A DNA stretch of 30,739 bases from IMG/VR virus record IMGVR_UViG_3300024180_000021, positions 1-30,739 of that record, one strand, 5' to 3'. A program made the translations under genes and the position numbers. The DNA comes from a virus. Positions 24,965 through 29,864 of the stretch are shown here, piece by piece. Numbering within the stretch: position 1 is the first letter of the stretch; every line of letters begins with the position of its first letter. Below the pieces are notes generated by a model that was given only the letters and a program-made list of their open reading frames with translations, did not search any database and had not been told where the DNA came from.

Positions 24965-25888
24965 ATGGATTATACTTTTTTATTAGGGTCAATAGAGAAT
25001 GTACTGGGAAAGAGTCAAAAAAGAGCTAGAGACAACTACGCTTTTCATTGTCCTTTCTGCAATCACCGTAAGCCTAAGCTTGAGATTAATATGGTAACTA
25101 ACGAAGAAGGTAAGAACTTCTGGGAATGTTGGGTATGTAAATCTAGAGGTCAATCTATATACTCACTAGTAAAGCAATTAAAACTACCAAAAAGCGAAGC
25201 ACAAGAAGTACTTAAGTATGTTAAAAAGGGTATTAAGTACGAATATAAAAATGATGATGTTGTAGAACTACCAAAAGAGTTCCAATCACTAGTAACAGCT
25301 TCAAATACATCGATAATAGCTAATAAAATTAGAAAGTATTTAAATGAACGAGGACTTAGCCACAATGATTTTATTAAATATAATATTGGATACACAACAA
25401 CTGGAGACTATGGAGGACGAATTATTATCCCAAGCTATTCTGAGTCCAATAGGCTCAATTATTTTGTTGGAAGAACTTACGAAGGAGCTTATTTTAAGTA
25501 CAAAAATCCAGAAGCTTCTAAAGATATAGTATTCTTTGAGAATTTAATTAACTGGGATAAACCGGTAATTCTATGTGAAGGAGCTTTTGATGCTATGTCT
25601 ATACGTAGAAATGCAGTACCGATATTAGGAAAGAGCTTATCACCAGCTTTATGGAAAAGGTTATTAACAGGTAAATTAACAGATATATACATCGCATTAG
25701 ATACTGATGCACAAGTGCAAGCTCTAGAAATAGCAGAAAAACTAATAGCTGCTGGCTTTAGAGTATTTTTAATTGAACTACTAGGTAAAGACCCTTCAGA
25801 GATGGGCTTCAAACAATTTACCGAACTAGTACAGAACGCAACTGAATTAGACTTTTCTAAGATAATGTTGCAAAAACTAAATTTATGA
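24965..25888 (+). CDS. 61: DNA primase, DnaG/gp61-like
   Basis: A 307-residue primase from ATG 24965. An upstream in-frame TTG is less likely given the promoter. Residues about 18-62 form the zinc-binding domain: HCPFCNHRKPK, then FWECWVCKSRG, a CHC2-type ribbon with four cysteines. Residues about 195-280 are the Toprim domain: VILCEGAFDAMSI holds the catalytic Glu and IYIALDTDAQ the D-x-D pair that binds Mg, ending KDPSEMGF. Length fits T4 gp61 (about 340). It would make RNA primers for lagging-strand synthesis with a phage helicase not in this window. It overlaps the following nuclease gene by 4 nt. It is preceded by its own promoter-like site. Confidence 0.85.
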   Translation: MDYTFLLGSIENVLGKSQKRARDNYAFHCPFCNHRKPKLEINMVTNEEGKNFWECWVCKSRGQSIYSLVKQLKLPKSEAQEVLKYVKKGIKYEYKNDDVVELPKEFQSLVTASNTSIIANKIRKYLNERGLSHNDFIKYNIGYTTTGDYGGRIIIPSYSESNRLNYFVGRTYEGAYFKYKNPEASKDIVFFENLINWDKPVILCEGAFDAMSIRRNAVPILGKSLSPALWKRLLTGKLTDIYIALDTDAQVQALEIAEKLIAAGFRVFLIELLGKDPSEMGFKQFTELVQNATELDFSKIMLQKLNL

Positions 25889-26667
25889 TTAGACAAGGTA
25901 CGAATATCCTTAAAGAAAATGCAAAGAACAGATTAGACTTTAAACCACAGTTAAAGCAAATTAATTTTTTAGATAGAAGAGTATACAAAAGAGATGAAGG
26001 CAAATTCTATCCTTCAGTTACTACAATCTTACAGTATATGCCTAAGAACAAGTTCTTTGATAACTGGTTAAAGGATGTAGGACATAATGCTGATTTAATT
26101 ATGCGTAAAGCAGGTAAGGAAGGAACTCAAGTACATGAAGCAGCTGAAGCTTTAGTATTAGGGAAAGAGGTAAACTGGATGGATGATTACGGTAATGCTA
26201 AGTATTCACAAGTAGTATGGGAAATGATACTAAAATTCTACGATTTCTGGTCCACTTATAAACCAGAACTTATATCCGCAGAAGAATTTGTATACTCTGA
26301 TGAGTTTAAATACGCAGGAACTGCTGACTTACTGGTAAAGATGGACGGAGAAACATGGCTACTAGATATAAAAACTTCTAATAACTTACACCGTTCTTAT
26401 AATTTACAATTAGCTGCTTATGCAAAAGCAATAGAAGAAGCAAAAGGAATTAAAATTGATAGAACAGGTATAATATGGTTGAAATCTAGTACAAGATCTG
26501 CTTCTAAGAAGAAAGGAACATACCAAGGTAAAGGGTGGCAAATAAAAATAATTGACGAGATAGAGTATAATTTTGACTTGTTTAAGACGATCTATAAGTT
26601 GTACCTATTGGAAAACCCTAATACGGAACCTATTTATAAGAGTTACCCAACAACACTAAAACTATAA
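25885..26667 (+). CDS. PD-(D/E)XK exonuclease (RecB/Cas4-like)
   Basis: A 260-residue protein. It contains YPSVTTILQYMP (about 47-58), GTQVHEAAEAL with the motif I histidine (about 80-90), YAGTADLLVKMDGETWLLDIKTS (about 145-170, split D ... D-x-K catalytic residues), and the later NLQLAAYAKAIE helix with Gln and Tyr, all in the order of RecB/Cas4-type nucleases. The Fe-S cysteines of Cas4 are absent. Its start overlaps the primase stop by 4 nt, so it is likely used in replication or host-DNA degradation alongside the primase. The following lipoprotein starts 3 nt after its end. Confidence 0.85.
   Translation: MIRQGTNILKENAKNRLDFKPQLKQINFLDRRVYKRDEGKFYPSVTTILQYMPKNKFFDNWLKDVGHNADLIMRKAGKEGTQVHEAAEALVLGKEVNWMDDYGNAKYSQVVWEMILKFYDFWSTYKPELISAEEFVYSDEFKYAGTADLLVKMDGETWLLDIKTSNNLHRSYNLQLAAYAKAIEEAKGIKIDRTGIIWLKSSTRSASKKKGTYQGKGWQIKIIDEIEYNFDLFKTIYKLYLLENPNTEPIYKSYPTTLKL
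26608..26636 (+). promoter_or_regulatory. Weak promoter candidate TTGGAA-N17-TATTTA
   Basis: Within the 3' end of the nuclease gene, TTGGAA (26608-26613) and TATTTA (26631-26636) are spaced by 17 nt, 35 nt upstream of the lipoprotein start. The box spacing equals that of the three stronger sites, but the T-rich spacer end is missing and the site overlaps coding sequence. Confidence 0.25.
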
Positions 26668-26670
26668 GAT

Positions 26671-27522
26671 ATGTTAAAAAAAGGATTGTTACTAATTACA
26701 GTTATATTACTAACTAGTTGCGGAGTACAGTGGAAGTACACAACACTAAACCACCTTGCACAAACACAACAATTTTCTACAGTCCCAGATTTTGCAGTCG
26801 AAATCGATACCTTAACATTTTCACAACTTAGATGGAAATTAAGAACAGATTTTACTTTTAGATACAATATTGCACAATACGCTCTCAGTCAACCAGCTTC
26901 TTTTGATTGGAATAATAGACTACTGGGTAATAGGTATAATTGGAATAGACCTTACTTAGGGTATAGATACTATTGGAATAGAGATCAAATGTGGAATGAT
27001 TGGGTGTGGGGATATACAGGTTGGAATTCTTGGGGATCTCCTTATAGGTGGTCACCATTTGGATATGATAGATGGGGATATGGAATCCACTACGGTTGGA
27101 ATAATCACGGGTGGGGATACAATAACTACAACGGTTGGAACAATTACTATGGACAGGGTTGGAGAAGAGGTAATGCTTCTTATACATACGGAAGAAGAGG
27201 ATATACACCAACAGCAAACACATCAAGCCGTATTGTGAATAGAAAAAGAACTACTAATTATAATAAACAACAAAGAATAAGTAAAAATGATAAAACTGTT
27301 AGAATTAATAAAAGAAGATCAGTCCAAACCCAAAGCAGTAGTAATGGCAGGAGGAGCAGGAGCAGGCAAATCATTCCTAATCAAACAATTAGGACTAACA
27401 GGACTCCCAATGTTCAACCCAGACAAATACGTAGAAGACCCAGCACACCCGTACCACAACAACCTGTCCGCAGCCAGCGGCCAAGTAGACAAAGACGTAG
27501 CAGCAGCAGCGGAAACAGGTAA
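26671..27522 (+). CDS. Tyr/Trp/Asn-rich lipoprotein with basic tail, overlaps next gene
   Basis: A 283-residue protein with a lipoprotein signal: MLKKGLLLITVILLTSCG, lipobox LLTSC with Cys17 as the predicted lipidated residue. Residues about 85-175 are extremely rich in Trp, Tyr, Asn and Gly (NRYNWNRPYLGYRYYWNRD and similar), a low-complexity style familiar from Bacteroidota envelope proteins. From about 190 the chain is Arg/Ser/Gln/Pro-rich and very basic. The final 236 nt (27287-27522) are also read in another frame as the start of the P-loop kinase. A surface lipoprotein made by a lytic-type phage could act in superinfection exclusion, by analogy with T5 Llp, but nothing here proves it. 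Confidence 0.75.
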   Translation: MLKKGLLLITVILLTSCGVQWKYTTLNHLAQTQQFSTVPDFAVEIDTLTFSQLRWKLRTDFTFRYNIAQYALSQPASFDWNNRLLGNRYNWNRPYLGYRYYWNRDQMWNDWVWGYTGWNSWGSPYRWSPFGYDRWGYGIHYGWNNHGWGYNNYNGWNNYYGQGWRRGNASYTYGRRGYTPTANTSSRIVNRKRTTNYNKQQRISKNDKTVRINKRRSVQTQSSSNGRRSRSRQIIPNQTIRTNRTPNVQPRQIRRRPSTPVPQQPVRSQRPSRQRRSSSSGNR

Positions 27523-28228
27523 ATCGCTTGTTTGGGATACTACAGCATCCAATCCTACTAAGATACAAAACTTATTAGATAAAGGATATAGTGTATACAT
27601 GATTATGGTATATACTCATCCTATGATTGCTTTTATAAATAATTTCTCTAGACAAAGAAGAGTACCTAAATCGGCTGTATTCTCTACTTGGCGTAATGTT
27701 TATGATTTGATTGGAAGTTATAAAGATATGCTTGGAGACAATTTTTCTTTATCTATTAACATGCGAAATAATAAGTTCGCAAAAGAGGTAGAAGGATTTA
27801 ATAAAGCAGCAGAGAGAGGGGTAGAAGGAGTTACTAATTACTTAGAAGACTATATGGAACAAAACGGAGGCAAAGATGCTTTTGGTTCTACATTTAGAAA
27901 AGAATACGAACTTCCATCCCAAGAAGCAATTCAGGCATTTAATCAAGAAATGACGGATATAGAATTTGATAGAGAAAATGAATCTATGGTTAAAGAGCTT
28001 AAAAAATACTGGGTTAAATTTTATGATAAAAACGGCACTGGTCCCGGTGATGTGAAAATGAGAAGTAAGATAGCAACTATAGAAAGAAGGTATAACAGTA
28101 ATAAAGAAAGAGAGAGACAAGTACTAGTAGATATTGCAGATATGTTAGTTGATAGAGAGTTTCAAGAAGAATTAAAACATTCAGATGTAGCTGAAATAGA
28201 TAAAAAAGTACAAGCATTTTTAAAATGA
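27287..28228 (+). CDS. P-loop kinase (AAA_33/zeta-toxin-like)
   Basis: A 313-residue protein. The Walker A motif GGAGAGKS lies at about 22-29, followed by a helix and FNPDKYVED (about 43-51), where the Asp pair could bind substrate as in zeta-toxin and polynucleotide-kinase-like enzymes. SLVWDTTASNP (about 80-90) supplies a Walker B-like strand. The part after about residue 170 is helical, charged and unassigned. The start MIKLLELIKED overlaps the lipoprotein gene by 236 nt. No better start exists before the Walker A, so the overlap is real. Its stop overlaps the nucleotidyltransferase ATG (ATGA), suggesting linked function, possibly phosphorylation followed by nucleotidyl transfer. Confidence 0.75.
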   Translation: MIKLLELIKEDQSKPKAVVMAGGAGAGKSFLIKQLGLTGLPMFNPDKYVEDPAHPYHNNLSAASGQVDKDVAAAAETGKSLVWDTTASNPTKIQNLLDKGYSVYMIMVYTHPMIAFINNFSRQRRVPKSAVFSTWRNVYDLIGSYKDMLGDNFSLSINMRNNKFAKEVEGFNKAAERGVEGVTNYLEDYMEQNGGKDAFGSTFRKEYELPSQEAIQAFNQEMTDIEFDRENESMVKELKKYWVKFYDKNGTGPGDVKMRSKIATIERRYNSNKERERQVLVDIADMLVDREFQEELKHSDVAEIDKKVQAFLK

Positions 28229-29430
28229 TAGCATTATATCCAGGGGCATTTAAACCACCACACAGAGGTCATTTCGAAGTTGTAAGAAGACTACTTAACG
28301 GTAACCACGGAGGTAAGGTGTATGATATAGATTCATACGCTGACGCTGGTGTAGGTGTATTAAATGGTAAAGGAGACGAGTTAGATAAGATAGATAAAGT
28401 ATACGTATTTATTGGAGGAGGTACAAGAAATGGAATAACTAAGGAGGAATCAATGGCTGTATGGAAGATATACGCTAAATACCTTCCTGGATTAGTTGTA
28501 ATGGATGGAGAAAAGAATCCAATGTTTGCTGCTAAAGACTATGCAAAAGCTAATCCAAATCAAAAATTCTACGCTATTACAGGTATTAGAGCACAAGAAG
28601 ATCTACCGGATCTAAAAAGGGTTACCACATTTAAAAATAGAGATAACGTAGAAGGATTAGTTATACCGGCCGGTACAGACTCTAATGTAAGAGCAACAGA
28701 TTTTAGAAGTGCCATACTTTCAGGTAATTTAGATGATGTACTGGACTTTTTTCCACAAGCACTGTCTAAGGATGAGATACTAAAAATAATGAACATGTTA
28801 AAAGCAAGTATTATAGCAGAGATAATGCAAGAAGAGTTAGATAGTAAGTTAAACGAAATGTTTAAAGAAGAAGAGGTAAAGAAAGAAGGCTCTTCCGGTA
28901 CAGCTATAGCTCCTAAGAGTGTTATGAGATCAGCAGACAAAGCTAAATTAGTAACTCTTTACAATAGGTTAAGAAATAGCATTGGAGATCAATACTACGA
29001 AATAGGTTTTCATCATGATCATATTATAATAAAGAATAAGGACGAAGACCAGAGAGTAGGGTTTGATTATACTCCTTTTATGGGCTCTATACTTGAATAT
29101 ATGATAGATGAAGGTATGAAAATAACTCCTCTACCGGAAGTAAAGATTAAAAGAGATATAGCAGAATCTTCTAACTTCTTCGGAAGAACAGCATACTACG
29201 ATCCGAATAAAAAAGAAGTCGTTCTCTATGTTCAAGGAAGGCACCCTAAAGATGTAATGAGGTCTTTTGCACATGAAATGGTTCACCACAAACAGAATTT
29301 AGAAGGTAGACTAGGAGCAATAGGAACTACTAATACAAATGAGGATACTAATTTAATGGAACTTGAAAAAGAAGCTTACCTAGAAGGAAACATAACTTTT
29401 AGAAATTGGGAAGATTCTATTAAAAACTAG
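28225..29430 (+). CDS. Nucleotidyltransferase fused to HExxH protease-like domain
   Basis: A 401-residue two-domain protein. Residues 1-190 are a cytidylyltransferase-like/NadR-type domain: the opening YPGAFKPPHRGHFEVVRRL carries the HxGH-type nucleotide-binding motif as HRGH, and the closing IPAGTDSNVRATDFRSAI holds the conserved Ser/Arg loop. A charged helical linker follows (about 193-235, IIAEIMQEELDSKLNEMFKE). Residues 290-401 form a zinc-peptidase-like domain: FAHEMVHHKQNLEGRLG is an HExxH motif, with a likely third ligand in LEKEAYLEGN. Nothing shows what the domain cleaves. Such fusions are uncommon, so the linker may be a cleavage site. It overlaps the kinase by 4 nt. Confidence 0.75.
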   Translation: MIALYPGAFKPPHRGHFEVVRRLLNGNHGGKVYDIDSYADAGVGVLNGKGDELDKIDKVYVFIGGGTRNGITKEESMAVWKIYAKYLPGLVVMDGEKNPMFAAKDYAKANPNQKFYAITGIRAQEDLPDLKRVTTFKNRDNVEGLVIPAGTDSNVRATDFRSAILSGNLDDVLDFFPQALSKDEILKIMNMLKASIIAEIMQEELDSKLNEMFKEEEVKKEGSSGTAIAPKSVMRSADKAKLVTLYNRLRNSIGDQYYEIGFHHDHIIIKNKDEDQRVGFDYTPFMGSILEYMIDEGMKITPLPEVKIKRDIAESSNFFGRTAYYDPNKKEVVLYVQGRHPKDVMRSFAHEMVHHKQNLEGRLGAIGTTNTNEDTNLMELEKEAYLEGNITFRNWEDSIKN

Positions 29431-29459
29431 TTGCCTTATTGAATTATTTTTCTTATATT
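29431..29459 (+). promoter_or_regulatory. Promoter: TTGCCT-N17-TATATT
   Basis: TTGCCT (29431-29436) and TATATT (29454-29459) with a 17-nt spacer ending TTATTTTTCT. It sits directly after the TAG at 29428-29430. The distance from the -10 box to ATG 29478 is 24 nt, nearly identical to the primase promoter (25 nt), and both genes open with ATGGAT. Confidence 0.65.
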
Positions 29460-29477
29460 ATGTATATAAAAACGGTT

Positions 29478-29864
29478 ATGGATATACAATCAATACAAGA
29501 AGTAGTTAAGGAAATATTACCAAAGGTAATTAAAAAGTACGGTTATAGCAAATTTGCAGAATGTACCCCTTATATTGAATACGAAAAGAGTATTTACGCA
29601 AGACTTGCAGGAGAAGACGACGATGGAGAATTAGGGGAAGAATGTCCTGATGCTGAATATGATCGTATCGATAATTCAATTATTTTCTACTACCCTCAAA
29701 TGACTAGCAGAAAACATATAATTGAAACACTAATACATGAATACCAACACTACCTTCAGTCACCTAGCTGGATGACTAGGTATTATAATATGGGGTATAG
29801 ATACGATAACCACCCTTATGAATTAGCAGCAACATCAGAAGAAATAAATTGGAATAAGATATGA
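29478..29864 (+). CDS. Small HExxH metallopeptidase-like protein
   Basis: A 128-residue protein. ATG 29478 (MDIQSIQEVVKEIL) is preferred over the in-frame ATG 29460 and TTG 29439, since those would overlap the promoter's -10 or the predicted transcription start. The zinc motif is IHEYQHYLQSPSW (HExxH, about 91-103), and HPYELAA further on supplies a probable third ligand (Glu). The first 35 residues form a helix (KEILPKVIKKYGY). The central part is acidic (AGEDDDGELGEE). Its last 4 nt overlap the next gene. The substrate is unknown, with a peptidase or peptidase-derived fold most likely. The preceding gene also ends in an HExxH domain, but the sequences differ. Confidence 0.65.
   Translation: MDIQSIQEVVKEILPKVIKKYGYSKFAECTPYIEYEKSIYARLAGEDDDGELGEECPDAEYDRIDNSIIFYYPQMTSRKHIIETLIHEYQHYLQSPSWMTRYYNMGYRYDNHPYELAATSEEINWNKI

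Follow-up and report, generated by a model that had tools for sequence, protein, structure and literature searches.

A lipoprotein tail probably encoded inside the start of a P-loop kinase gene in uncultured marine phages

Among uncultured marine phages there is a large family in which the gene of an envelope lipoprotein overlaps the beginning of the gene for a P-loop kinase. The lipoprotein gene would read past the kinase start codon, so that kinase DNA, in another frame, would code for the last ~75 residues of the lipoprotein. A true double-coding overlap of this kind is the best explanation of the evidence as a whole, with a probability of roughly 0.9. That selection acts on both frames, as the first-pass annotation had proposed, appears close to certain from comparisons of homologues at the level of codons, frames and residues.

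The locus belongs to a 30,739-base record of an uncultured virus, and this whole stretch is called the window below. The features discussed are the following.

25885 to 26667, plus strand: PD-(D/E)XK / Cas4-like exonuclease, the conserved upstream neighbour
26671 to 27522, plus strand: lipoprotein coding sequence, 283 aa, with a lipobox signal peptide, a Trp/Asn/Tyr-rich body and a basic Ser/Pro/Gln/Asn-rich tail
26671 to 26721, plus strand: signal peptide and lipobox (LTSC, predicted lipidated Cys17), sequence MLKKGLLLITVILLTSC
27287 to 28228, plus strand: zeta-toxin-like P-loop kinase coding sequence, 313 aa (assigned by Pfam Zeta_toxin and Foldseek)
27287 to 27522, plus strand: putative double-coding segment of 236 nt, kinase residues 1-78 and, in the other frame, the lipoprotein tail
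27290 to 27292, plus strand: kinase Ile2 codon, ATA; ATT at Ile2 would be a TAA stop in the lipoprotein frame
27350 to 27373, plus strand: kinase Walker A / P-loop GGAGAGKS, residues 22-29, within the overlap
27520 to 27522, plus strand: lipoprotein stop TAA, formed by the T of kinase codon Gly78 (GGT) together with AA from the following codon, Lys79 (AAA)
28225 to 29430, plus strand: downstream gene with a nucleotidyltransferase-like N-terminus (YPGAFKPPHRGH) and an HExxH region, both from weak profile hits

The two genes and their surroundings

The two genes lie on the same strand, and each lipoprotein codon begins at the third base of a kinase codon. The earlier coordinates of the overlap, 27287-27522, are exact.

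The kinase matches the Pfam family Zeta_toxin (PF06414) with an E-value of 8.5e-9 and 35.6 bits, above the gathering cut-off of 22.3, and the match takes in the Walker A motif. An AlphaFold model has an alpha/beta fold (mean pLDDT 83). The best PDB folds found by Foldseek are PezT, zeta toxin, phosphoseryl-tRNA kinase and small-molecule kinases, at low TM-score. What the kinase shares with the zeta toxin / PezT family is the above-gathering profile score and the presence of PezT and zeta toxin among its closest folds; it differs from them in its low overall structural similarity (TM-score about 0.3) and in its long extra C-terminal helices. No relatives of the kinase were found by tblastn of the GenBank phage collection or by a profile search over GTDB genomes, and tblastn of the same phage collection found none of the lipoprotein.

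Since the P-loop of the superfamily lies in the kinase frame, this frame is the older of the two. A kinase start further downstream would abolish the overlap, a concern raised in the first-pass annotation. Such a start is ruled out by the P-loop and the conserved N-terminus, which both lie inside the overlap; the N-terminal pattern MIKL....PKA is kept in homologues both with and without it.

The zeta toxin / PezT family is marked by UDP-GlcNAc kinase activity and a cognate epsilon/PezA antitoxin. The lipoprotein and the nucleotidyltransferase-like gene are the neighbours of the kinase that were examined, and no antitoxin was identified among them. The nucleotidyltransferase-like gene shares 4 nt (ATGA) with the kinase end, and its HExxH motif reads HEMVHHKQNLEG. 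It is possible that the kinase and this gene form an NAD-related kinase/adenylyltransferase pair with a metallopeptidase-like domain attached. A small open reading frame at 29439-29864 carries a second HExxH-like motif (HEYQHYLQ) and has a weak SprT-like match under the cut-off.

In the window, the lipoprotein has no cysteine beyond the lipobox Cys17. Among 67 overlapping homologues, the lipobox pattern is present in 64, and a cysteine after the lipobox is found in none of these 64. AlphaFold models the protein with a pLDDT of 42 overall, too low for a fold search, and yields no structure past residue 115, where pLDDT stays below 50 up to the C-terminus. In Bacteroidota lipoproteins, acidic residues following the lipobox cysteine act as a surface-export signal. 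The window lipoprotein has no acidic residues immediately after this cysteine, which argues against surface export and leads one to expect a periplasm-facing protein.

The closest cultured relative of the flanking genes is the Flavobacterium phage Immutovirus immuto (NC_055915.1), with 59% identity in the primase and 61% in the baseplate protein, and so the host is probably a member of the Bacteroidota. This phage has the same gene order (primase-exonuclease-...-NadR-deoxyribonucleotidase), and its NadR-annotated gene stands at the position of the 28225-29430 gene. Neither the lipoprotein nor the kinase was detected in it. Its gp089 was considered as a kinase candidate and is not homologous.

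Constraint on the second reading frame

IMG/VR was searched with the kinase and the lipoprotein. Kinases of at least 230 codons were kept and made non-redundant at a 97% nucleotide cut, giving 83 sequences. The overlap is present in 68 of them, with the lipoprotein stop 158-254 nt into the kinase and mostly at 236-239 nt. It persists down to about 45% kinase identity relative to the window. Codon statistics are based on the 67 sequences with an overlap of at least 200 nt, leaving out L195 (158 nt). At L062:3998-5563, compared with the near-identical L063, a frameshift joins lipoprotein and kinase into one open reading frame of 521 codons, probably by a sequencing or assembly indel.

The codon usage of the window kinase changes at the end of the overlap. 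In a comparison of codon phase inside and outside the overlap, as suggested earlier, a third-base T is found in 1 of 71 codons between codons 6 and 76 and in 85 of 228 afterwards (Fisher p=3e-11), and the ratio of C to T in two-fold-pyrimidine and Ile codons is 15:1 in the overlap against 14:54 after it (p=7e-8). A recount of these codons in kinase residues 30-77 gave 15 out of 15 ending in C, just as had been reported, and the described return to T past the lipoprotein stop is borne out by codons 79-130 (T in 12 of 15).

The homologues show the same pattern; because the sequences are related, p-values overstate their independence. The mean frequency of third-base T in codons 6-76 is 0.087 in overlapping sequences and 0.34 in overlap-free homologues, while downstream it is 0.35-0.38 in both groups. 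When sequences are aligned on the lipoprotein stop, the frequency is 0.01 in the five codons before it (-5 to -1) and 0.47 in the five after it (+1 to +5). The codon-usage boundary at the lipoprotein stop is sharp to the codon.

Stop codons follow the same division. In kinase codons 5-78, the lipoprotein frame has 0.49 stops per sequence with the overlap, a figure that counts the terminal stop where this falls in codons 5-78, and 9.13 without it (5-11 in the overlap-free homologues). For the other forward frame the values are 8.84 with the overlap and 8.40 without. Given the kinase protein and its own codon usage, the probability of an open frame is 10^-4.6 for the window; across 51 overlapping homologues it averages 10^-5.4 per sequence. 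Where overlapping homologues have Ile2, the second kinase codon is ATA or ATC in 46 of 46 and ATT in none, whereas the overlap-free L126, L129 and L176 use ATT. Codon identity at conserved residues was also compared in pairs at 40-55% protein identity. It is 0.563 against 0.477 expected when both members have the overlap, and 0.371 against 0.372 expected when one member has it and the other does not; only overlapping pairs are clearly above expectation in the overlap segment.

A more specific question is which residue would be read in the lipoprotein frame if the kinase third base were T. Where this residue would be Cys, T is found at 0 of 597 sites in the overlap, compared with 36-77% downstream. 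Where it would be Phe, Leu, Trp or Tyr, T is used at 3-9% of four-fold sites in the overlap and 30-57% downstream. Where it would be Ser, the corresponding values are 32-37% and 44-66%. Sixteen representatives below 70% identity give a similar result: in the overlap, T giving Cys, Phe, Tyr, Leu or Trp is used at 21 of 357 sites and T giving Ser at 78 of 214, against 633 of 1227 and 153 of 255 downstream. The residues of the lipoprotein frame are thus under selection, beyond its mere openness.

Exact-sequence conservation of the tail peptide is present and modest. Over aligned codons of the 67 sequences, peptide identity is 0.443 compared with 0.386 in synonymous shuffles, an excess of 0.057 against about 0.02 in downstream controls. 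A doubly synonymous test, using A/C third-base changes before GA or GG that keep Arg, found no excess of tolerated changes, and so does not speak for selection on single Arg codons. Together, the modest peptide conservation and this null result suggest that selection holds the tail chiefly to a composition (polar, basic, disordered and without Cys) and weakly to an exact sequence.

Losses of the overlap and the origin of the tail

The 15 sequences without the overlap serve as natural experiments. All were inspected, and the lipoprotein frame is full of stops in each. Nine have a long Asn/Ser/Arg/Pro-rich lipoprotein tail of their own, with a stop from 8 nt before to 4 nt after the kinase start. 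Two have a lipoprotein of only 92 aa, with a stop 8 nt into the kinase, and four lack the lipoprotein and have the exonuclease gene directly upstream of the kinase; in these phages, with a short lipoprotein or none, the arm is dispensable. Homologues with a broken lipoprotein frame, named earlier as evidence that would count against the overlap, therefore exist, and in none of the 15 does the lipoprotein run into the broken frame. The frame breaks exactly once it is no longer used.

On a tree built from kinase residues 85 onward, the overlap state requires nine parsimony changes, and several overlap-free lineages are nested in overlapping clades. Supports for nested losses are 0.93 (L206 with L207), 0.91 (L133 with L124), 0.91 (L247 group), 0.99 (L176 group) and 0.98 (L177 group). 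In L092/L206, which is 89% identical to its close relative L039/L207, the old tail can still be recognised although stops now interrupt the disused frame, and the lipoprotein has a tail of its own. Constraint is relaxed once the second frame is abandoned: synonymous divergence in the overlap segment compared with downstream is raised in L133 (0.62 against 0.31 for L124/L133) and in L176 (0.58 against 0.40 for L236/L176), but not in L206, where the closest pair, L206/L207, has 0.38 in the segment against 0.37 downstream and just new stops. A regain of the overlap in L124 is possible; it would need an open frame of 75 codons.

The first-pass annotation had described the basic tail as overprinted on the kinase start. 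The overlap does encode tail, but the basic low-complexity stretch begins upstream of it (RKRTTNYNKQQRISKNDK...), and its Arg and Ser are largely imposed by the kinase. Read in the lipoprotein frame, overlap-free homologues likewise have 19% R and 14% S, together with 12 stops per 100 codons, so these residues are largely a by-product of the kinase sequence. Pro, Gln and Gly together make up 31% of the frame with the overlap and 8% without it, and result from codon choice.

In phages that lack the kinase, homologous lipoproteins also have a C-terminal stretch of 70-130 residues in which Asn, Arg, Ser, Thr and Pro abound and which is Cys-free except in the frame-disrupted L084 and L089. Since these lipoproteins have such arms, there seems to be a demand for a long arm of polar, basic character, with the overlap as one route of supply. 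The two exceptions (L084:4190-4402 and L089:3980-4546) are broken-frame homologues, reflecting degradation or sequencing errors. The ending [SN]RRKN-stop, in the lipoprotein's own DNA, is frequent in kinase-less phages (L071, L076, L086, L091, L046), and many overprinted tails, L088 and L235 among them, finish in a very similar RRKN or RRQN. Such an ending might act as a signal at the C-terminus; where the kinase is absent, it might instead simply result from the AGGAG ribosome-binding site of the next gene.

Between the window and L006, the kinase is 94% identical and the lipoprotein body 33%, so the lipoprotein diverges, or is swapped, far more rapidly than the tail overprinted on the kinase. 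Ahead of the overlap the bodies come in two size classes, one of about 100-130 aa and another of 150-235 aa, with the same tail. A claim that they are unrelated modules was dropped, since clustering gave one cluster, the result of their common Trp/Asn/Tyr-rich composition. The window/L006 contrast and the two body classes with one tail hint that the kinase 5' end may serve as a shared tail donor, from which an upstream lipoprotein in the right frame gains a ready-made disordered polybasic C-terminal arm. This is a tentative suggestion and, on balance, a doubtful one. If it were true, lipoprotein bodies would diverge or swap while the kinase-locked arm stays.

Alternative explanations and significance

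Several other models could be proposed for this arrangement. The open frame might serve translational coupling only, with ribosomes having to traverse the kinase start for unwinding or dosage and the peptide being irrelevant. The lack of stops fits this model, and the arrangement on the same mRNA makes coupling plausible. However, openness alone does not predict that Cys, Phe, Tyr and Trp are avoided while Ser is tolerated, nor that the lipoprotein stop lies as far as 236-239 nt into the kinase, nor that relatives without the overlap have DNA of their own for a polar basic tail, which leaves coupling alone a slim chance. Selection on the kinase mRNA, independent of the lipoprotein frame (an early-codon ramp, low structure or local composition), deserves even less weight. 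The overlap does sit at the kinase 5' end, where codon ramps occur, and third-base T is slightly lower (0.23) in codons 3-18 of overlap-free homologues. Yet in homologues of the same kinase that lack the overlap, T makes up 34% of third bases here and the frame contains 5-11 stops; the effect is cut off at each lipoprotein stop, whatever its position, and depends on the residue read in the other frame. Accidental run-on, a recent neutral extension after loss of a stop codon, is similarly hard to credit. A single third-base change in Ile2, from ATT to ATA or ATC, would delete the stop that ends the L126 and L129 lipoproteins. But the overlap is kept across kinase identities down to ~45%, where synonymous sites are near saturation, although the average probability of an open frame in any one sequence is about 10^-5.4. 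Run-on may remain a fair account of how the overlap originated, not of how it is maintained.

A phage lipoprotein that overlaps its neighbour in another frame is also the classic layout of the Rz/Rz1 spanins (PMC6139136), which raises the possibility of a spanin-like pair, the lipoprotein being an o-spanin that overlaps the gene of its i-spanin partner. Rz/Rz1 and other embedded or overlapped spanins (PMC6139136, PMC5295617) resemble the present case in that a phage lipoprotein shares DNA in another frame and has a disorder-prone composition. At least one periplasmic Cys, forming intermolecular disulfides, is found in 507 of 528 two-component spanins (PMC6139136), whereas the only Cys of the mature lipoprotein here is the lipidated one, with no other in 64 of 64 homologues. 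The partner is a soluble P-loop kinase with a conserved Walker A motif, an alpha/beta model and no membrane segment seen, rather than an i-spanin. The C-terminal tail of the lipoprotein overlaps the 5' end of this next gene, and no lysis genes or recognised lysis cassette were identified nearby. A spanin pair is accordingly most improbable.

In the double-coding explanation, lipoprotein and kinase would both be translated from one mRNA. The product would be a lipoprotein of the outer membrane that probably faces the periplasm, in a host belonging to the Bacteroidota, and its tail would supply a long, Cys-free, disordered and positively charged arm. Avoidance of Cys fits an exported protein. 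Because lineages without the overlap mostly have a comparable Asn/Ser/Arg/Pro arm encoded in DNA of their own, it is likely that the arm is required, mainly for its composition. As a guess, it might bind anionic envelope polymers or DNA, for instance in superinfection exclusion or envelope remodelling; any one specific role is unlikely to be the right one.

Long overlaps and overprinting are already known phenomena, and in bacteria and their phages long overlaps on one strand are frequently put down to annotation errors. To our knowledge, few such overlaps have evidence that both frames matter. No report of this lipoprotein/kinase pair was found in the open-access literature. What sets the case apart is how deeply it is conserved, that it covers a catalytic motif and that it comes with natural controls.

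Viral overlapping genes are in general rich in Arg, Ser, Pro and C, poor in T and disorder-promoting (PMC6195259, PMC8227390), the same composition as in this overlap. Overlaps in DNA viruses are mostly short, with a median of per-genome mean lengths of 15.6 nt (PMC8903798), while this one has 236 nt, spans the P-loop of an enzyme and comes with many overlap-free homologues.

The divergent homologues and nested losses amount to natural one-frame knock-outs, which make it possible to measure, at each site, what double coding costs and what logic it follows. The residues allowed in the second frame become visible: Ser is accepted and Cys never. The locus is a clean benchmark for overlap-detection methods, and it indicates that DNA coding for a catalytic domain can provide a phage protein with a long disordered arm.
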